A stretch of DNA of 30,410 nucleotides from a virus: positions 1 through 30,410 of IMG/VR virus record IMGVR_UViG_3300042691_010135, one strand, 5' to 3'. Positions 3,215 to 30,410 of the stretch are shown piece by piece (the stretch's first letter is position 1; each line of letters opens with the position of its first letter). The notes beneath the pieces were generated by a model. That model was not told where the DNA came from, made no database searches, and was given only the letters and a program-made list of their open reading frames with translations. The translations under genes were made by a program, and so were the position numbers.

Positions 3215-3757
3215 CTATGACCACTTAGGACGAAGACTTGCAAGTCGCTCACTTCTTTGTCCGTAAAGCGTTCCCTTAACTGGTCTAGGAACATCAGCAC
3301 GTAAGTTTGCTTTTCCATCATTTACTAACTTCGGAGCAGGAGTTAGTTCTGATTCTGGAGAGTATCTGTCTGAATAATAGACAGCCACACCGTATTGGTT
3401 AACAACTTTAGATTTTAATTGTCGGGTTAATCCGCGGGTGGGCTGTAACTCTTGAGGCCAGTAGTATTGAGAAGGTTCAATTCGTTCACCTTTATGAACA
3501 CCACGTTGATAGGCTTTTTTATTTACATTGTTCTTTATAGAATCTAAAAGACGGTCGTCACGACGACGGGTAACTAGCGTACCTAAATAACCATCTGGGT
3601 ATTCGGCGGAAGGAACACGACCGACACCAAGACGCATGAAGTCTAGGTTTGAACGGACTGAAGGTCCACCAACTCCGCCTTGATTGTTGTAGCCGTTAAG
3701 ACCACCAGCACCTAGAGATTGCCAATTTTGATTTGGCGACATATTTTCTGCTGGCAT
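3215..3757 (-). CDS. Hypothetical protein (180 aa)
   Basis: 180 residues: a Gly/Asn/Gln-rich N-terminus (residues 8-35) suggesting a flexible arm, then an Arg/Lys/Tyr-rich body without Cys or hydrophobic segments. The ATG at 3757 shares a base with the upstream TAA (TAATG), with AAGG just upstream. Met6 is an alternative start. No family recognised. Its composition resembles the neighbouring 206-aa and 123-aa proteins, so they may form one functional group, perhaps minor virion or internal proteins, which is inference. Confidence 0.55.
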   Translation of the reverse strand: MPAENMSPNQNWQSLGAGGLNGYNNQGGVGGPSVRSNLDFMRLGVGRVPSAEYPDGYLGTLVTRRRDDRLLDSIKNNVNKKAYQRGVHKGERIEPSQYYWPQELQPTRGLTRQLKSKVVNQYGVAVYYSDRYSPESELTPAPKLVNDGKANLRADVPRPVKGTLYGQRSERLASLRPKWS

Positions 3758-4377
3758 TAGCCTTCACCACGCATACGGTTAACACGGTTTTCGTTTATAG
3801 TTCTAAGAATACTTTCATAGTTAACTGGCTTTCCTGCAAGTGTTCCAGCCTTTTTCTTCCAGTCTTTATTTGCGTATTGATTGCGAGTAAAACTTCCAGC
3901 ACCTGGGGTATCTAATGCTCCTGGACGGTAGCGTGGGTCAACATCATTTTTTCCAAGGTCTGCTGTGTGTAAAAGAACATCTCCACCGCCACCCATATTG
4001 TGACCACGTGCTGATACACGTGTCTTTGACATTCCGTAAGATGCTTTTTGCTTTTCAGCAACCCCCATTTCTTGTGCTTCTTTAGGGGTCTTAGTTTGAA
4101 CAGATAAATCTTGGTCTGCAACACCTGGAGTTGCTGGGTTTTTCCACACACCATGAACGGTTGCATCACTACCACTTGCTAGTTCGTGATGAGCGTTTCT
4201 GTAATTTTGAATATCTTCGGCTTTAATTGGCAAAGCAGTAGGTTTTTCTGCTCCTGCAAAAGAAGTTAGGAATCCCTTACCAGTCACAGGCTCTCTTGTT
4301 TTAAAATTAACAGAGCCTCCATAGCCCTCGTTTATGTGGGCAGCAAACTGTTCGTTACTAAGAGGTCTGTTTTCCAT
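3757..4377 (-). CDS. Hypothetical protein (206 aa)
   Basis: 206 residues, hydrophilic, with a Gly-rich loop (GHNMGGGGD near residues 125-133) and basic C-terminus (INENRVNRMRGEG). No known motif. It is the first leftward gene after a 144-base gap in the minus-strand gene series, so transcription may restart here. The Shine-Dalgarno immediately before ATG 4377 is poor (a GGAG lies more than 20 bases upstream). The gap on the other strand holds the start of a divergent gene (4431-4610). Function unknown. Confidence 0.55.
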   Translation of the reverse strand: MENRPLSNEQFAAHINEGYGGSVNFKTREPVTGKGFLTSFAGAEKPTALPIKAEDIQNYRNAHHELASGSDATVHGVWKNPATPGVADQDLSVQTKTPKEAQEMGVAEKQKASYGMSKTRVSARGHNMGGGGDVLLHTADLGKNDVDPRYRPGALDTPGAGSFTRNQYANKDWKKKAGTLAGKPVNYESILRTINENRVNRMRGEG

Positions 4378-4610: not shown

Positions 4611-5751
4611 TGTGAACTGATTCAACAGCAAATCTTCCAGTCTCTTCGTTGTACCAAACTATTCCTACTCCTTGTTGCCAATTTTCGAAATGAACTCCTG
4701 GTTTACCATCCGCTCCAATTCCTGCGTTAGCAGAGGGCACAGCACCGTCAACCCGACATAAACATCCTGGGCTAAACGCGACGCTTCTAATAGGTCCTGT
4801 TGAATCGAACGTAGTTCTGTATTGAAGTTCGATTCTGTGTATGTGTCCGAATATCGAGGATAGGTGTGGTGTGTCGTTTGTGTAGGCTGCTGCAGTTGAG
4901 CCGTTGCTTCGTACTTTTGTACCGTGCATGGCTCTGAGATACTTACCAAGCCATACTTGGCTTTCTTGCGACGGATACTTGTCATAAAACTCCACTCCTA
5001 ATTCGTTTAAGCACAATAAGTTTTGAACGCTTAAAACTGGGTCTCCTTCTAAATCGTTTGCTTTCTTTAGCCCATAAGAGGCTGCAGCATTACGAGTAGC
5101 GTGGAGGTTTAAGCGGTTATCGTGATTTCCTTCCAATAGAACAATACGTGTTTTTGGAGCAATCGCTCTTTGCTTTGCTAAAAACTCGTGCCCATAGTTA
5201 ATCGCAAGTTGAGTGGTATTGGCAAATGCTGCTTCTTGAATAAACCGAGAGTGTTCAGGAAGGTCTAAGAAATCCCCTAGATTGATGACAACATCTATAC
5301 CAAACTTCTCTTGCACATAAGCCATGATTTGTAAGGCAACATCTATTGCCTGTACGTCATGGAATGGGTCAAGAGTTCCATCTTCATACCTTCTAAATCC
5401 AATTTGAGGGTCAGGCAAAATAAATGCACATCGCATTTTGGTTTGTGATTTATCGTGTTCGGTGGGTGTCCAACCAATACTTACATTTACTGGGTCTGCT
5501 GGTCGGATGATTTCCCATTTAGGTCCTTCGTTCCACGCGGGGTGGATAACGAATTTAAGACCTTCAAGGTCGTGAACAGTTGCGTTACCGTCTTCGTCTT
5601 TCGTGACGGTCTGATAACTCGATAACCTAACCGTAGAAATATGACCAATGTCTTCCGCATCAAACCCATTTTTTTCAAGCAGTTCTTTTATCTTAGAAGA
5701 CTCTGCGGTCTTTTGTAATTCTTCCCATTGCTTTCCTTTGTCTACCGACAT
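4522..5751 (-). CDS. Calcineurin-like metallophosphoesterase
   Basis: 409-residue phage metallophosphoesterase. Seen: an N-terminal ~100-residue non-catalytic part (helical start, then the region containing EGLKFVIHP), then the catalytic blocks: DPQ (residue ~114), LGDFLD (~158), EGNHD (~207), an AMHG histidine and FGHIHR. These are the family motifs D-x-H/Q, GDxxD, GNHD and GHxH that bind two metal ions. The first has Gln in place of His. Known members hydrolyse phosphodiesters or phosphomonoesters; the phage substrate is unknown. ATG 5751 is preferred, with GGGGG 7 bases upstream; ATG 5757 or a longer frame to 5793 are alternatives. Preceded with a 10-base overlap by a small HTH gene. Its 3' end is overlapped antisense by the 59-aa gene. 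Confidence 0.88.
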   Translation of the reverse strand: MSVDKGKQWEELQKTAESSKIKELLEKNGFDAEDIGHISTVRLSSYQTVTKDEDGNATVHDLEGLKFVIHPAWNEGPKWEIIRPADPVNVSIGWTPTEHDKSQTKMRCAFILPDPQIGFRRYEDGTLDPFHDVQAIDVALQIMAYVQEKFGIDVVINLGDFLDLPEHSRFIQEAAFANTTQLAINYGHEFLAKQRAIAPKTRIVLLEGNHDNRLNLHATRNAAASYGLKKANDLEGDPVLSVQNLLCLNELGVEFYDKYPSQESQVWLGKYLRAMHGTKVRSNGSTAAAYTNDTPHLSSIFGHIHRIELQYRTTFDSTGPIRSVAFSPGCLCRVDGAVPSANAGIGADGKPGVHFENWQQGVGIVWYNEETGRFAVESVHIIEGHAVYQGQEFQYSESPSQTPPQTLNQ

Positions 5752-23524: not shown

Positions 23525-25744
23525 TCATTGGATTCGGGAGTAGGAGTCTCCTTCAAAACCCTTATAAGAGCGGATTCTATACGGCTGGTTTAGTGCCATC
23601 CACTCTCCGAGTGTCCACAAAAGGCGTGGAATCTTGATAGTTCTGCTGACATAGCAGTAAGAGTACGAGGCATGGGCAGTGCCTGACCAAAATACTCCCT
23701 GTGCTACAGGCAAAGACCCATCAAAGTAATCGCTTGGAATAAATCCTTTTTCAAATTGAGCATTATCTACAAATACGTTTTCCCCAGTTAATGTGGCAGC
23801 AAGATTTAATGCCATAGTTATGTTGCCTAAAGTTGAGAACCCAACTGGAACAAAGAGGCGAACTGAATAACGTTGCCAATCGGTAGTTAAGTTCCAAGTT
23901 GCAACCGCAGTGTCTGAGTCTACTCCGTCATCGTCTGTTGCTGAAAGAGTTGCAGTAATTGCTTTAGCAGCAGATGCTTTTAAGTACGCAGAGAAAATAT
24001 AGGTATTACCCTCAGTTATTTTGTAGGTGGTTGGGGTTTTATTGAGTTCAACCGCAACAGCAAAAGCGTTTTGACCACTAAATCTACAAGACCACGCTCC
24101 AGGTAACCCAGGTGGCACATCAGCCACACGAGTTTTTGATGAGTTAGTTGTCCAGTTATTTGTATTAGTTTCAAAAGAAGGATTAGCAATGATGTTAACC
24201 TTTGAGGAGTCTAGGAAAATATCTATTCCCCGTGCTTCATCAAAGTTAGTTGCCGTTGCTTGAGGTGCTAGTTGAATACAGTCAATGTTATAAGAGTTTT
24301 GAGTTGTAAATACAAATCTGTAAGTAGCGTAAACCGCAGTTGCTGGAGAAGTTACGTTTATAGAGAACCTTTGGTAAACACCAGTTGTTCCATTTATCTG
24401 GGCTTCTTGAACATAACTACCAATTGCTGCACCAAGATAATCATGCCATGTTATATCTGCTACAACGTTTCCATTGGAATCAGAGGCTGCGTAGTAACTA
24501 AATCTGTAGGCAGTTGACCCCTTTACTGGGGTTCCTTTTGTAACAGGGTTGTCTTTGCCTAGTCTCATAGTTGAACAGTTTGTTACTGTTCCCGTTGCGG
24601 TTACTTCAGCAACGTTTTGTGCTGTGTTAGCAAATCTAAATGTAGTTGCAGAAGGAACTGCGGTAATGGAACGAACCCCGTTAAAATCAGCAGTGGATAC
24701 TCCAGCAATTGTTACGCTATCTCCAACAGCCAATCCATGGGCTAAAGCCATAGTAATAGTGGCAACGTTGTCGGTTCTTGCTATTTTAGAAATTTGAGCA
24801 ACTGCGGTAACAAATCTTCCAGAATAAACTAAGTCAACCGCATTAGTTCCAGTAGGTCCTGGTTTATCACTAGCCGAAGTTAATGTGCCGTTTGTTCCTG
24901 TCCAACGCCCAACTCCTTGAGTAAAAGAAGAATCTTGGGTATCTAAAAAGATGTTTGGAGAAACAGTTAGGGTTGGAATGTAATTACTGACAGCCTCAAC
25001 ATAATTTTGAATTCCTTGCAAAGTTCCTTTAAGTTTGTAAAGGCGTAGGCTTTCTCTAATAAGTTTCTTTTGATTTCTATATGGTAGGCCCATTTCAGGG
25101 TAAAGACCAACGTTATCTGCAGCAAGTGGAACTAAAAACGGAGGGGTTTTTCTCTTTCCAAAAGAAGGTGTAAGCAATTCAGCCGATGTAATAATCTGGT
25201 CGTAAGTAAAGGAAAAGGCTTTTAGATAAGTTGCTAAGAAACTATCTGGGTCAGGAACTCCTGTAGGGCTTTTTTCTGGGCTAGTAAATACTCTTGGCAA
25301 AAGACGAAGCATTGTGGTTTGAGAGCCTCTATCCCTTGGCATTAACGTTGTTGCATAACCTGCTGGAATCCAAATAGAGTTGCTTGTGAAAAGAAAAACA
25401 GTGTAATAAATAAACTGACCTGGAGTAATGGGAAGGTTGTTGTTTGCATACGGGTCAATGAAGTTATCTTCACCATCTAAAAACCTATCACGCTCTACTA
25501 AACCAGTTAAATCTGTAGTTGAGGATTGTTCCCATAAAATAACGCCGTCTTCTTCTGTTTCAGAAAAGTTGTCATTGTTTCTGACAAGGCGAATTTTTGT
25601 AAAGTTACCTGAAGGAGAGTTCCATCGTACAAGGATTTTTCCATAGTCGATTGCCGATGCAGACATCGGTTCGGCGTTGAGAACAAGCCGTGGAGAGTTG
25701 CCGTAGTAGGCTCCACGGTAAATAAACCCCGTATACTTTGCCAC
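23525..25744 (-). CDS. P2 gpI-like tail protein fused to Fn3- and CBM-like modules
   Basis: 739 residues. An Fn3-like N-terminal module (~20-135), then a gpI-like region (~145-255) with LLPRVF, FLATYLKAFSFTYDQI and the KGTLQGIQNYVEAV helix typical of P2 gpI / phage_tail_I proteins. After ~265 come two carbohydrate-binding-like (CBM_4_9-type) β-sandwiches (WTGTNGTLTSAS..., NPSFETNTNNWTT...), with an HGLAVGDSVTIAGV phage β-module between. gpI is a baseplate component, so this protein could link the baseplate to cell-surface glycans. GTG 25744 has TAGGAG 6 bases upstream. Confidence 0.78.
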   Translation of the reverse strand: MAKYTGFIYRGAYYGNSPRLVLNAEPMSASAIDYGKILVRWNSPSGNFTKIRLVRNNDNFSETEEDGVILWEQSSTTDLTGLVERDRFLDGEDNFIDPYANNNLPITPGQFIYYTVFLFTSNSIWIPAGYATTLMPRDRGSQTTMLRLLPRVFTSPEKSPTGVPDPDSFLATYLKAFSFTYDQIITSAELLTPSFGKRKTPPFLVPLAADNVGLYPEMGLPYRNQKKLIRESLRLYKLKGTLQGIQNYVEAVSNYIPTLTVSPNIFLDTQDSSFTQGVGRWTGTNGTLTSASDKPGPTGTNAVDLVYSGRFVTAVAQISKIARTDNVATITMALAHGLAVGDSVTIAGVSTADFNGVRSITAVPSATTFRFANTAQNVAEVTATGTVTNCSTMRLGKDNPVTKGTPVKGSTAYRFSYYAASDSNGNVVADITWHDYLGAAIGSYVQEAQINGTTGVYQRFSINVTSPATAVYATYRFVFTTQNSYNIDCIQLAPQATATNFDEARGIDIFLDSSKVNIIANPSFETNTNNWTTNSSKTRVADVPPGLPGAWSCRFSGQNAFAVAVELNKTPTTYKITEGNTYIFSAYLKASAAKAITATLSATDDDGVDSDTAVATWNLTTDWQRYSVRLFVPVGFSTLGNITMALNLAATLTGENVFVDNAQFEKGFIPSDYFDGSLPVAQGVFWSGTAHASYSYCYVSRTIKIPRLLWTLGEWMALNQPYRIRSYKGFEGDSYSRIQ

Positions 25745-26391: not shown

Positions 26392-26674
26392 TTGACTCTC
26401 CTTTATCGGTTGTAACTGTAACAGCATCCCACTTCCCTATGGGGCATGAAGCATGCGGTAGTTTTGTCTTTTCTTTCATAAAACACCCACATTTTTTACA
26501 TGTGGTGGTTAGTTTGATTAAGTGCTCGCATCCAAGACAAAGGTTTAAACGCTTAGTCTTAGTCTCTTCATCAACTCGACCTATATTTGGGTTCGCAAGG
26601 TCCCAAGGACGTACTGGGTCTCCAGGATTTTTTTCCTTAAACAGTTGCCAAGGTGTTTTCTTTTTCTCTGTCAT
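26384..26674 (-). CDS. Cysteine-rich zinc protein (DUF6171-like)
   Basis: 96 residues. N-terminal PWQLFKEKNPGDP, then a six-Cys cluster: Cys46, 49, 59, 62, 64, 77 in CLGCEHL...CKKCGCFMKEKTKLPHASCP, ending in GKW. The spacing C..C, C..C.C, CP.GKW is the DUF6171-like pattern I know from other phage genomes, where it sits near tail fibre genes. Four or more of these probably bind zinc. Function unknown. ATGA overlap with the cysteine-rich fibre gene. Confidence 0.68.
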   Translation of the reverse strand: MTEKKKTPWQLFKEKNPGDPVRPWDLANPNIGRVDEETKTKRLNLCLGCEHLIKLTTTCKKCGCFMKEKTKLPHASCPIGKWDAVTVTTDKGESNE

Positions 26675-27981
26675 TGTCCGAACGCCTTTACTTGTATTGA
26701 GCCTATGTTCCTACCATCTTCATAAACGCTAGGAGCACCAATAATACCGTATTTTCCTGCAGAAAACGCATTTGTTACAGAGGTAGTTTTTACAAGTTGG
26801 GTGTAGTTGATGTCTTTGTAAGCATTAATAGTGAGGGTGACATTAAATCCAGTGACCTTAAGAGCATTCCATCGCTCTGTAGTTTGAATATCTTGGGTTG
26901 TAAGAACCCCACCAGTCATAGTCAAAACCCTGATGTAGTAAAACTGTTCAAAAGCGGTAGCAGTTCCTGCTACTTCACAGACAAATCGTGACCCAGATTG
27001 GCAGCAGTTATAGTAAGGAACTTGCACATAGCCAGTAGAACAGGTGGCTGGAATTGTGTAAGTTTCAGTTGTAGTTGTTGAACCCGTGCAAGTAGTAGTT
27101 GGTACACCTTCTGAATACGCAGTACATACTTCAAAGTACTCAAGCCTTGTTACGCAACTTCCAGGAACTGTACGAGTACAAGTATCTCTATCACAACAGA
27201 TTGTTGAACAAGTTGTTGTACATGCTCCAGGTACAGTTCTGCACCTAGTTATTCCATCTTCTCTGGTACATTGAGTAGAGGACGGAGCACAGGTTTCTCT
27301 ACATGAGTTACAGTTTTTAATACAGCAACTGTAAGTTTCGGTTGTAGCAGGGCTACATATTGATACTGGTGTTGAATAAGAGTAAGAGTCAATACATTGA
27401 CGCTCTCCTATAACTGTTGTACAACCTGTTGGGACTGTAACTTGACGAGTGCCTGTGGTTGCTGGGGTCTCAGTTCCATAACAAACGTTGTTATACCCCG
27501 CTGGTTGAGTACATGAGGCAATACAGTAACTTTCATTTCGACCTGATACGCAAATTGGGTAGGTATATGAGGTTTGGTTATACCAAGGAAGTATTGCAAC
27601 CCAGTTATTTGCATCTAAGGCTCTTACTACAACTCCCATGCCAGGAGAAAGTTCGTTTGCTTGTAGTTCAAAATCTACAACACCCATATCAATAACTGCT
27701 AAAGGGTAATCTGTTTTTGCAGAGGTAGTGTTAGCAGCGTTATCTAGGATACGCCAAACACCTCGAAGGACTTCCCATGATTGTCCACTATCTGCTGTTC
27801 CTATAGAACTTGAGGTATTGGCTCTTCCAAATCCATCTTTAATTTCTGCAGCCCAAAATTGTTTCCAAACATTTTCAACTTTAATATAGCCCGCTCTTGC
27901 AGGTTTCCAACCACCGTCTACTTTTGCGTAGAGATTGGCAGCAGATTTAAACTGACCGCTTACCTTAGAACCAATAGCCAT
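26671..27981 (-). CDS. Tail fibre-like protein with dense cysteine-rich insert
   Basis: 436 residues. Start: two short units (LYAKVDGGWK, GYIKVENVWK) as in fibre N-termini, then a jelly-roll-like domain (GFGRANTSSS..., WRILDN, DFELQANELSPGMGVVVRA...NNWVAI). From Cys144 to Cys335 there are 26 Cys in 192 residues, none outside, with four [VI]P-x-x-C units (Cys187, 254, 276, 314) and many Thr/Ser. After it the β domain resumes (FYYIRVLT, ERWNALKVTGFNVTLTINAY). The insert is thus within the β domain. Receptor-binding role inferred. Start has AAGGA; end overlaps the DUF6171-like gene. Confidence 0.72.
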   Translation of the reverse strand: MAIGSKVSGQFKSAANLYAKVDGGWKPARAGYIKVENVWKQFWAAEIKDGFGRANTSSSIGTADSGQSWEVLRGVWRILDNAANTTSAKTDYPLAVIDMGVVDFELQANELSPGMGVVVRALDANNWVAILPWYNQTSYTYPICVSGRNESYCIASCTQPAGYNNVCYGTETPATTGTRQVTVPTGCTTVIGERQCIDSYSYSTPVSICSPATTETYSCCIKNCNSCRETCAPSSTQCTREDGITRCRTVPGACTTTCSTICCDRDTCTRTVPGSCVTRLEYFEVCTAYSEGVPTTTCTGSTTTTETYTIPATCSTGYVQVPYYNCCQSGSRFVCEVAGTATAFEQFYYIRVLTMTGGVLTTQDIQTTERWNALKVTGFNVTLTINAYKDINYTQLVKTTSVTNAFSAGKYGIIGAPSVYEDGRNIGSIQVKAFGQ

Positions 27982-27990
27982 TATTAGTCC

Positions 27991-28653
27991 TTACGCTGTG
28001 TACTTAATCCAGATGTCTCCGTTATTACCACCAGTTGGGTCTGCTGTAGACACAGTGATATTGCGAAGACGTGAAGTAAGTGCTTGGTCTCCTTGAAGGG
28101 TTCCTCCAGTGATTTGAATGGTTGTTTCAGCAGATAAAACTGCAGGTGTTGAATCTGAATCTACCCAAATTGTTCCTGTTGGAAGCCCTAGTGCAGCAGC
28201 ATCTGGTTGTGTTGCTTGCATAAGAATCGGTTTAATCTCTTGGTTATTGATATAGAGTTTTCCTGCAGCATCTACCTTTGTTAAAGTTGTTCCACCTGAG
28301 TTTTTAAACTGAAGTAAATCAGAACTTTGGCTGGTAAATCCTTGGACTGTTAGGGGAACGGTTGCAGCATTTGCTGGTTGAATGGTTCCGCCTGTGTACT
28401 TAAAGTACTGGGTATGGACATCGCCTTTAATACCCCGCTCAATATTTTGAATGCGAGCCTTTAGAGTTGCAAAACTAACTGTAGATTCGTCAAAGGTTCC
28501 AGTGTAGCCCGAAGTAACTTGAGGCAGGGTTCCAATAGTTGCTTGAATTGCTGTAACCTCGTTTTGAAGCGAGTTAATGTGTTCAGCAAGAACTAGGTCG
28601 GTAAAGTCTTCTTTATTGGTAAAGGACTTTACGCCTTCTGGAAATACAGCCAT
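27991..28653 (-). CDS. Minor tail/fibre protein with coiled coil
   Basis: 220 residues. N-terminal MAVFPEGVKSF, coiled-coil HINSLQNEVTAIQATIGTL, then KARIQNIERGIKGDVHTQYF, and repeated β segments (TVPLTVQGFTSQSSDLLQFKNSGGTTLTKVDAAGKLYINN), ending in GGNNGDIWIKY. The repeat-rich trimeric-fibre style resembles distal tail/fibre proteins; trimerisation via the coiled coil is inferred. ATG 28653 has GGAG 8 bases upstream. A 64-base gap upstream holds only a short AGGGA/TCCCT hairpin. Confidence 0.7.
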   Translation of the reverse strand: MAVFPEGVKSFTNKEDFTDLVLAEHINSLQNEVTAIQATIGTLPQVTSGYTGTFDESTVSFATLKARIQNIERGIKGDVHTQYFKYTGGTIQPANAATVPLTVQGFTSQSSDLLQFKNSGGTTLTKVDAAGKLYINNQEIKPILMQATQPDAAALGLPTGTIWVDSDSTPAVLSAETTIQITGGTLQGDQALTSRLRNITVSTADPTGGNNGDIWIKYTA

Positions 28654-28717: not shown

Positions 28718-29215
28718 TTAGCCATTGTTCCCGTGAGTATGCTGAATTGAGGTTCTAGTCGCCAAAGTTGCCCTAACAAGTGCTAAGTCAGTCTCTAAGG
28801 TTTTAATCTTGTTTGCCATAACCAAGAGGGTTGCTACAAGGTCTACCTCTGTTGTGCCATTTGCTGTGCGTTCTGTAATGATGTGGGTATTTTGTATGCC
28901 TGTTAAAGAAGTTGTATCACGTAAAACCTTTATGTTTACTCGTTTGTCTTTCTTAGGCTTACCAAAAGTCCCACACCAAATAGGGTATGAAGGGTCTCCG
29001 CCTTCAAAAATAATCCACACCCCGTCGCCAATGTCAGGAACTTCAGAGCGTACGCTAGAGACTTCTTGAGGCCACACGTAGTTAGTTACATCAACATCAT
29101 TTAATTGAGGAATTTTGACTTTTATTCTACGGTGACCTTCAGGGTCTTTGTTGTCAACAACTACTCCTCTGTATTGACCAAAGAACTTTTCAGAGTCTGC
29201 AACATTGTTATACAT
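28718..29215 (-). CDS. gp5/gpV-like baseplate OB-fold protein
   Basis: 165 residues. N-terminal OB-type domain: FFGQYRGVVVDNKDPEGHRRIKVKIPQL, WPQEVS, then PDIGDGVWIIFEGGDPSYPIWCGTFG, which follows the T4 gp5 / P2 gpV / VgrG N-terminal motif. The C-terminal part lacks the long β-helix and has a coiled-coil-like helix (LLVMANKIKTLETDLALVRATL) and an HTHGNNG tail. It is a hub or spike component of the baseplate. TAATG overlap with the baseplate J gene. A short spike suggests a separate tip protein elsewhere. Confidence 0.78.
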   Translation of the reverse strand: MYNNVADSEKFFGQYRGVVVDNKDPEGHRRIKVKIPQLNDVDVTNYVWPQEVSSVRSEVPDIGDGVWIIFEGGDPSYPIWCGTFGKPKKDKRVNIKVLRDTTSLTGIQNTHIITERTANGTTEVDLVATLLVMANKIKTLETDLALVRATLATRTSIQHTHGNNG

Positions 29216-30410
29216 TATGCCAAGGTCGCCTCTAAGATAATGTCTGACTCTGCAAAACTTAAAATCTCATTATCTAGGGCTTGAATAACTGCAAGTCCTT
29301 GACTACCTCCAGTTTTAAATAGGTACTGACACTTTGCTCGTAAAATTCCTGGGATATTAGTAATTACATACTCAACATCTTGAGCAGAAACTCTTTCGCC
29401 AAAGTTTACATAGTTGTAACCAAAGTTAGAGATTAACGCTTGCTTTAAAGTTCTTTCTGCTACTGCTGTAGTAAACGATGGGTCTAGTTTGTATTGAACG
29501 TTCATTGTTACTGGTACATAGGTAGGTTGTGTAAGTGTAAGACTAACTCCTGCTAAAGTTTTATCTGAAAAAAAAGATACAACTGCATCACGAAGGTTAT
29601 TCCACTCTACCGTTGGGGTTGCAACATTGTTTATGGTTTCAATACCTGGGGTTGGGTCACCATCTACATCTTCTCTACGTGGAGCAATGTACATAGTTAC
29701 AGAGGTGTACCCACTAGATACTGCTTTTGCTTTTCCGCAGTTTTCAACTGCTAATGCAAGGTTCTGGTAATCATCAATAGTAATTGCACGATTTTGTGCA
29801 CGTAAGAATAAAGGAGCATTCTTTCTAATTGACGCATCTGACTCTGGATTTAATCCACCAGCACCAACAGAAACGTTATTTATATCAATTACTCCTGCAA
29901 GAGAAGCAACTTGTTGCTCTGATAATCCAGGAACATACTCTAAAGTATTAATAATTCCCGTCTTAACATTTCCTAAACTTCCACCACCAATAGTGTAGGT
30001 TGCTCTAATAGCAGAGTGAATTGTGGGAATTGCTCCAGAAACACCGTCACCAAATACAACAAACAAACGGTTATCACTATCGTAGCGAACGGTATACACC
30101 GCATCATTTGGTCCATAATCAATTAAATGTTGAACACGAGTCCAAAGTCCAAAGGTGTTACCGCTTTCAACGTAGACATTTATGCTGTCTAAAACAACTG
30201 GGTCATCATCAATGTCAAACACTTGCTCAGCATCTCCATTTGAAGCACCTAAAAGAACTCCGTAAACATTGCCAGCCTCTACAGTGTTAGAAATTCCCTC
30301 TTCGCATAGTGTTGAGGCTTCTCCACGAACATTGTTTGCAAAAGCAGGGATAGTAACTGCATTTAAAGTAGTAAATGTTACGGTAATTGTTTCATCATCA
30401 TTAATAAGGT
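29215..30410 (-). CDS. Baseplate J-like protein, 5' end outside window
   Basis: 397 residues visible and open to the right edge with no stop. Seen: NVRGEASTLCEEGISNTV, DGVSGAIPTIHSAIRATYTIGGGSLGNV, SVGAGGLNPESDASIRKNAPLFLRAQNRAITIDDYQNLAL, the region typical of baseplate J family (P2 gpJ / T4 gp6-like), and a C-terminal GERVSAQDVEYVITNIPGI. The GTG at 30222 is internal, not the start. It builds the baseplate wedge. The 5' end must be sought upstream. Confidence 0.85.
   Translation of the reverse strand, partial: LINDDETITVTFTTLNAVTIPAFANNVRGEASTLCEEGISNTVEAGNVYGVLLGASNGDAEQVFDIDDDPVVLDSINVYVESGNTFGLWTRVQHLIDYGPNDAVYTVRYDSDNRLFVVFGDGVSGAIPTIHSAIRATYTIGGGSLGNVKTGIINTLEYVPGLSEQQVASLAGVIDINNVSVGAGGLNPESDASIRKNAPLFLRAQNRAITIDDYQNLALAVENCGKAKAVSSGYTSVTMYIAPRREDVDGDPTPGIETINNVATPTVEWNNLRDAVVSFFSDKTLAGVSLTLTQPTYVPVTMNVQYKLDPSFTTAVAERTLKQALISNFGYNYVNFGERVSAQDVEYVITNIPGILRAKCQYLFKTGGSQGLAVIQALDNEILSFAESDIILEATLA

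Follow-up and report, generated by a model that had tools for sequence, protein, structure and literature searches.

An Even Number of Cysteines in the Variable Loop of a Predicted Phage Tail Adhesin Points to Disulfide Stapling

A gene in the tail module of an uncultured virus encodes what is probably a baseplate-borne receptor-binding adhesin, in which a CBM66-like scaffold would carry a variable loop stapled by intrachain disulfides. Its family comes from uncultured, mostly actinobacterial phages, and the cysteine number of the insert was even in all 88 family members in which both halves of the scaffold were present, which suggests that bacterial surfaces are gripped by a disulfide-stapled loop. 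The window analyzed here is the whole stretch of DNA, an IMG/VR virus record of 30,410 bases (Table 1). Gene order within it runs from baseplate J through a V-type baseplate protein, a 220-residue tail protein, the Cys-insert protein, a DUF6171-like protein and two small proteins to a 739-residue protein, and synteny places the Cys-insert gene in this module, from baseplate V/J to the 739-residue protein, in the window and in relatives L002 and L004.

Table 1. Coordinates of the Cys-insert gene, its parts and its neighbors in the window
Feature	Coordinates	Strand	Basis or remark
Cys-insert tail adhesin, 436 aa	26671..27981	-	ORF and syntenic relatives
N-terminal module, residues 1-48	27838..27981	-	Probably virion attachment
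First half of CBM66-like (concanavalin-like) beta-sandwich, residues 49-143	27553..27837	-	Predicted structure
Cys-rich insert, residues 144-335	26977..27552	-	26 Cys; 13 putative intrachain disulfides
Second half of beta-sandwich, residues 336-436	26674..26976	-	Predicted structure
Ascending stalk strand, residues 126-167 (C144, C153, C157, C167)	27481..27606	-	AlphaFold2 model
Descending stalk strand, residues 318-356 (C326, C327, C335)	26914..27030	-	AlphaFold2 model
C227 codon	27301..27303	-	Missing together with C258 in L002; putative disulfide partner
C258 codon	27208..27210	-	Putative partner of C227
DUF6171-like companion, 96 aa	26384..26674	-	Six Cys kept in 5/5 aligned
220-aa tail protein, directly upstream of Cys-insert gene	27991..28653	-	Same place in L002, L004
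Baseplate V / spike (Phage_base_V)	28718..29215	-	Pfam
Baseplate J, truncated by record end	29215..30408	-	
739-aa tail protein	23525..25744	-	CBM_4_9 above cut-off; Tail_P2_I below cut-off

The original prediction described a block of 26 cysteines within the fiber-like protein and none outside it, and recounting placed all 26 of the protein's cysteines within the insert exactly. Likewise, the four [VI]P-x-x-C units were recovered, starting at residues 183, 250, 272, and 310, as were the near-identical repeats RTVPGAC (residue 248) and RTVPGSC (residue 270). Against a background of 72 cysteines in the 9,418 residues of the other listed window proteins, the binomial chance of at least 26 cysteines in 192 residues was 2.7e-24. 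The insert contains no histidine and one lysine, and the neighboring tail proteins of the window contain 0 (three proteins), 1, 3, and 4 cysteines. A frameshift or assembly error was ruled out as the source of the block because relatives retain both the reading frame and the cysteine codons. Eighteen relatives, 35 to 73% identical, aligned across the frame. The window shared 26 cysteine codons with L007, of which 7 differed synonymously, and 24 with L002, of which 5 differed synonymously, with two cysteines present in the window only.

The N-terminal module matched phrog_36019 over residues 1 to 44 and phrog_25859 over residues 5 to 45. The only Pfam match of the window protein was Gmad2, which at 17.6 bits stayed below its cut-off of 25.7, and the family profile matched only the F17-G lectin among PDB sequences, at E values of 0.46 and 0.5. 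The 220-residue protein upstream has a C-terminal end, ITVSTADPTGGNNGDIWIKY, that is nearly invariant and matches tail fiber families, and the rest of the protein diverges more; in Rhizobium phage RHph_I46, an end that looks alike by eye lies ahead of the adaptor-bearing gene. With its CBM_4_9 domain, the 739-residue protein may be a second component of the virion that binds sugars. Elsewhere in the window (positions 1590 to 1790), a 66-residue protein with two CPxC motifs is probably a small zinc protein and had no Pfam match at an E value of 0.001.

The window encodes a WhiB protein (PF02467, 8.4e-15), as do 10 of the 13 family records with the window counted, and an actinobacterial host is proposed because of it. 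The GC content per kilobase of 37 to 46% would suit low-GC freshwater actinobacteria as hosts. Streptomyces phages pSt2308 and BRock have the baseplate in common with the window, and their translated tail-module proteins carry 0 to 4 cysteines each.

IMG/VR relatives carried a Cys-rich insert at the identical point of the identical beta-sandwich. The family was gathered by scanning viral contigs with single proteins and with profiles; a strict regular-expression search, which gave 26 proteins, was replaced by a profile of the first-half domain. The first-half profile found 93 distinct family proteins among the fetched loci. In GTDB genomes, 214 pattern matches included no relatives. When 50,697 phage records were searched by tblastn with six queries, nothing beyond residues 1 to 47 was matched: the window protein, L019, L157, L199, and L183 found no match among the cultured phages, and L021 matched seven Rhizobium phage records through residues 1 to 47 only. 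One locus, L183, encodes two adjacent Cys-insert paralogues (3420 to 4325 and 4775 to 5710) with 6 and 8 cysteines, and no DUF6171-like gene was found within 2.5 kb of the pair. The inserts of L178, L177, and L179 are marked by many short Asn-Cys steps (NCNS, GNCN, PTCN), whereas the insert of the window is Thr rich; judged by eye, they possibly adopt another fold.

The original prediction that the block is inserted into a beta domain of the receptor-binding type was supported by the in-frame alignment and by predicted structure. An AlphaFold2 model of the window protein, made with 19 family sequences (mean pLDDT, 79.6; pTM, 0.53), folded the residues on either side of the insert into one beta-sandwich, from which the insert exits and to which it returns through two very long strands, with more strands between them and with pLDDT values of 54 to 83 over the insert blocks. 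With moderate confidence, the insert is thus predicted to be a long antiparallel beta-ribbon arm and not the compact knot that had been proposed. The modeled protein matched CBM66 (Z 16.9; rmsd 2.5; 149 residues aligned) and the central fiber protein gp20 of phage Douge (Z 16.5; rmsd 2.7; 167 aligned). A second model, of L178 from a remote clade (13 sequences; mean pLDDT, 56), repeated the sandwich and the stalk strands (residues 103 to 120 and 276 to 291) but did not resolve the loop, in which residues 118 to 276 fell below 50. It matched CBM66 (Z 17.0; rmsd 2.4; 147 aligned) and the receptor-binding domain of TM4 gp23 (Z 15.5; rmsd 2.9; 168 aligned). Among viral models, the six best Foldseek rows were uncharacterized proteins of uncultured Caudovirales phages (E values of 2.4e-19 to 2.5e-10), and the next was an Arthrobacter phage minor tail protein at 5.4e-4. 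Foldseek against the PDB gave no match at an E value of 0.001 or below, and its top rows, pore-forming proteins and a phi29 tail part, were set aside with rmsd values above 35. We conclude that the sandwich, as modeled, is CBM66-like, a fold also found in mycobacteriophage receptor-binding domains.

If the arm is an antiparallel ribbon, its strands would bring particular cysteines face to face. In the 19 aligned proteins, C144, C314, C326, and C335 were cysteine in 19 of 19, C153 in 17, C157 in 15, and C167 in 16. By our own arithmetic on residue numbers, the sums 144 + 335, 153 + 326, and 167 + 314 lie between 479 and 481, and a near-constant sum is the pairing ladder expected across an antiparallel ribbon. 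The putative rungs are therefore 144-335, 153-326, and 167-314.

Evidence for disulfides comes from parity. The sample comprised 87 proteins with a second-half profile match plus the window protein, which was delimited manually and in which each of the 26 cysteines was taken as insert. Six of the 93 family proteins were left out for want of a second-half match: L006, L032, L056, and L066, which are truncated by the record end and have 12, 13, 17, and 3 cysteines, and L121 and L223, with 24 and 5. Five of the 88 (L092, L186, L205, L206, and L209) are incomplete ORFs that run off one record end but matched in both halves. Counting of cysteines began 3 residues short of the first-half end and stopped 8 residues beyond the second-half start, bounds fixed before parity was known. 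All 88 inserts were even, as were 66 of 66 after redundancy reduction at 70% and 34 of 34 at 40%, even though the inserts ranged from 37 to 461 residues in length and held 4 to 50 cysteines in 19 different counts, including 18, 22, 26, and 30. With the lower bound moved between -3 and -10, 65 to 66 of the 66 stayed even when counting ran to 4 to 20 residues past the second-half start, 58 of 66 when it stopped at that start, and 36 of 66 when it stopped 5 before; a lower bound of 0 or +3 gave 29 to 64 of 66. Counted over the whole protein, cysteines were even in 79 of 88, and the nine exceptions had one cysteine outside the insert bounds; in L182, L188, and L192, an additional cysteine 12 residues past the second-half start was scored as outside.

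For other amino acids, 41 to 82% of these 66 inserts had an even count; cysteine itself read 0.89 in this control, the slice for which starts after the first-half boundary and drops the first cysteine in 7 of 66. An even count does not by itself prove disulfides: control genes with at least 4 cysteines were even in 65 of 93 cases and those with at least 8 in 14 of 22. A fair coin would give 34 of 34 with odds of 5.8e-11, and the base rate of 65 in 93 would give it with odds of about 5e-6 by our own arithmetic. Moreover, on a tree of 77 proteins from which the insert was left out, cysteine count changed at least 47 times and parity did not change once; the tree was a quick build in which 27 of 74 inner branches were weak and ten end branches were long. 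Chance or inheritance as the sole cause of parity was ruled out by the uniform parity and by the tree.

Changes between close relatives also came in twos. Among 110 insert pairs 50 to 99% identical, which are not independent of one another, 67 differed in cysteine count, by 2 in 52 pairs, by 4 in 12, by 6 in 2, and by 8 in 1. Eight close comparisons made position by position showed no cysteine change in four and a change of exactly two in four, representing three separate events. C227 and C258, both present in the window and L007 and neither in L002, are exactly the cysteine difference between the window and L002; L011 has two cysteines absent from L013, and L019 has two absent from L020. The pattern is that expected if disulfides are gained or lost as units. 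Even parity through many count changes, together with paired changes, indicates that the insert cysteines most likely are all paired within the chain, with 13 disulfides in the window protein. The stabilization by disulfides that the original prediction offered as one option is therefore very probable from the parity, the tree, and the paired changes.

Apart from its cysteines, the insert is the part of the protein that diverges most. Mean pairwise identity was 0.27 for the insert, compared to 0.64 for residues 1 to 48, 0.63 for the first half of the sandwich, and 0.49 for the second. In eight pairs, dN/dS was 0.16 to 0.49 for the insert and 0.09 to 0.30 for the halves, exceeding both halves in 5 of 8, and there was no sign of positive selection (dN/dS above 1) in the insert in any of the eight. 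Constraint on the insert thus tends to be weaker with the cysteines kept, as judged from sequence. Reverse transcriptase (PF00078), looked for as the mark of a retroelement-diversified variable protein, was found in 0 of 13 records, which may be fragments.

Even parity could in principle arise in other ways. Were the insert a metal-binding domain (zinc or iron-sulfur) devoid of disulfides, even numbers would also be favored, as zinc sites favor them and may explain the 65 of 93 even control genes; moreover, the neighboring DUF6171-like protein resembles a zinc ribbon by eye, and phage tail tips can hold iron-sulfur clusters or iron, as in lambda gpL and P2 gpV. Family counts nevertheless shift by two, the values 18, 22, 26, and 30 are not multiples of 4, CxxC occurs only 0 to 2 times per protein in the aligned 19, and the window insert has no histidine and a single lysine. 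We consider this explanation very improbable, and the metal stabilization raised as an option in the original prediction is unsupported. Disulfides that cross-link chains and lock subunits together have a precedent in phage Milano, in which sheath, baseplate, and receptor-binding proteins are joined by inter-subunit disulfides (PMC10811340), and cysteine pairs swapped between copies of one chain would be compatible with the counts. Cross-linking would not require an even number in each chain, however, yet all 88 inserts are even, and the window protein has no cysteine outside the insert; we regard such cross-links as quite improbable.

Another explanation assigns the insert no part in binding, such that it would be a rigid spacer for mechanical or chemical stability, with binding left to the sandwich or other tail proteins. 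A CBM66-like fold can bind sugars alone, as the Douge CFP-tip-CTD binds mycobacterial glycans (PMC13033339), and the CBM_4_9 domain of the 739-residue protein could serve the same end. The insert nonetheless varies more than any other part of the protein and, at 37 to 461 residues, spans more than a tenfold range of length, uncommon behavior for a simple spacer, and we think a spacer unlikely. The adhesin with a stapled, variable loop remains the preferred reading, with the arm probably exposed and engaged in host binding.

We propose a mechanism for the stapled adhesin as follows. The N-terminal module would fix the protein to the virion, and the predicted sandwich would act as a scaffold in which one loop has been replaced by the insert, rising as an antiparallel ribbon. 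The staples, strongly supported by sequence statistics, would let a fast-changing loop vary its surface and yet stay folded and protease resistant outside the cell. The ligand is probably a cell surface glycan of the actinobacterial host, to judge from the fold and WhiB. Because synthesis takes place in a reducing cytoplasm, the disulfides would probably close during or after lysis. Thioredoxin was found in 4 of 13 records, the window not among them, and Erv-type oxidase was found in 0 of 13, in a search the control for which likewise had no match.

The original prediction also linked the insert to the adjacent DUF6171-like protein, a link that gene order shows to be real. The companion scored 28.2 bits against PF19668 (cut-off, 27) and matched phrog_13558 at 5.6e-16. 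In 60 of 73 instances from loci L154 to L223, which were found via the sandwich itself, a DUF6171-like gene began at most 400 bases past the end of the Cys-insert gene (gap of at most 30 bases in 45 of the 60; 49 of 58 with each distinct protein counted once); one of the remainder lay further off, seven had no such gene, and five were at a contig end. Approached from the other side, 80 DUF6171-like loci, the best 80 of 584 confirmed matches, had a Cys-dense protein (at least 8 cysteines per 100 residues) in the 1.5 kb upstream in 52 of the 75 loci with room, downstream in 0 of 78, and among 6 of 318 ORFs elsewhere, in a sample that leans towards the Cys-insert family because the query was built from that family's own companions. 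The Cys-insert family occupied the upstream position in 29 of the 75, and of 17 distinct, complete Cys-dense proteins of other kinds beside DUF6171-like genes, 13 had even cysteine numbers. The DUF6171-like protein is not an exclusive partner, because it also occurs away from Cys-rich genes, as in Stenotrophomonas phage Moby.

Other architectures stand beside the same companion. In the cultured Synechococcus phage S-SRM01 (L072, 2883 to 4336), the gene immediately ahead of the DUF6171-like one encodes an adhesin of a different type with 11 cysteines. Upstream of DUF6171-like genes in L093, L095, L100, L102, L143, and L149, proteins seem by eye to have Ig/Fn3-type repeats followed by FFPPFFP tracts, with cysteines mostly towards the C terminus, so that this companion is shared by a distinct Cys-dense architecture. 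The cysteine pattern of the companion, CxxC...CxxCxC...C, was kept in all five aligned proteins, looks like a zinc ribbon, and would suit either zinc binding or activity on thiols. Speculatively, the companion may help maturation of the adhesin. No paper on DUF6171 was found in the open-licence PMC literature.

Phage receptor-binding domains usually count as disulfide poor, since their folding takes place in a reducing cytoplasm. The original prediction likewise took dense disulfide knots to be rare in phage virion proteins, but disulfides in phage tails have a precedent in the extensive network of Milano (PMC10811340). The original prediction knew of no described system of this kind, and in the open-licence PMC literature we too found no paper describing a disulfide-stapled, length-variable loop with even-cysteine parity; the accessible parts of PMC12750041, PMC6802176, PMC10202952, and PMC13252515 do not describe a Cys-insert adhesin. 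If a large family follows an even-cysteine rule in the loop that varies most, disulfide stapling would be shown to diversify phage adhesins, and the rule gives a testable code for loop connectivity. The gene link hints at a role for the unassigned DUF6171-like family, and the adhesins would offer stable binders for uncultured freshwater actinobacteria.

Comparison with known systems separates what is familiar from what is new. The best structural match of both models is CBM66 of Bacillus subtilis (4B1M, 4B1L, and 4AZZ), with targets of 161 to 165 residues, which leaves no room for a long insert, and a sequence identity of 11 to 13%; CBM66 is not known to have a virion role. Residues 470 to 878 of Douge gp20 (PDB 8ZDP/8ZDQ) contain a similar beta-sandwich at an actinophage tail tip. 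Recombinant Douge CFP-tip-CTD binds Mycobacterium smegmatis as well as mycobacterial LAM/AM and alpha-glucan fragments (PMC13033339), a result that, among experimental ones, speaks most strongly for binding by this kind of fold; the word disulfide does not occur in the main text of that paper. The receptor-binding domain of TM4 gp23 (PDB 9N6A) has the same fold as the second-clade model but, unlike the Cys-insert family, has 4 cysteines in 784 residues and no Cys-dense block. Agrobacterium phage Milano has many disulfides in its contractile tail, and the bonds stressed in its report join different subunits (PMC10811340), whereas the even counts in one hypervariable loop here point to bonds within the chain.

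A like design is seen in the ultralong CDR H3 of bovine antibodies, in which a beta-ribbon stalk rises from a beta-sandwich and bears a variable Cys-rich part with a bias towards even cysteine numbers (PMC7366855). The bovine protein is unrelated and arises by somatic hypermutation, and the likeness is an analogy only. Extending it, uncultured actinobacterial phages may conceivably use a similar scheme, with a fixed lectin-like scaffold, a beta-ribbon stalk and a stapled loop, new binding shapes arising by paired gain and loss of cysteines, and a DUF6171-like protein, bearing a conserved CxC and dedicated to the task, managing the thiols of the Cys-insert and other Cys-dense adhesins, although we hold this fuller scheme to be doubtful. 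The receptor-binding-type domain is of a known kind, and what is new is the stapled, length-variable loop with its even-cysteine parity.
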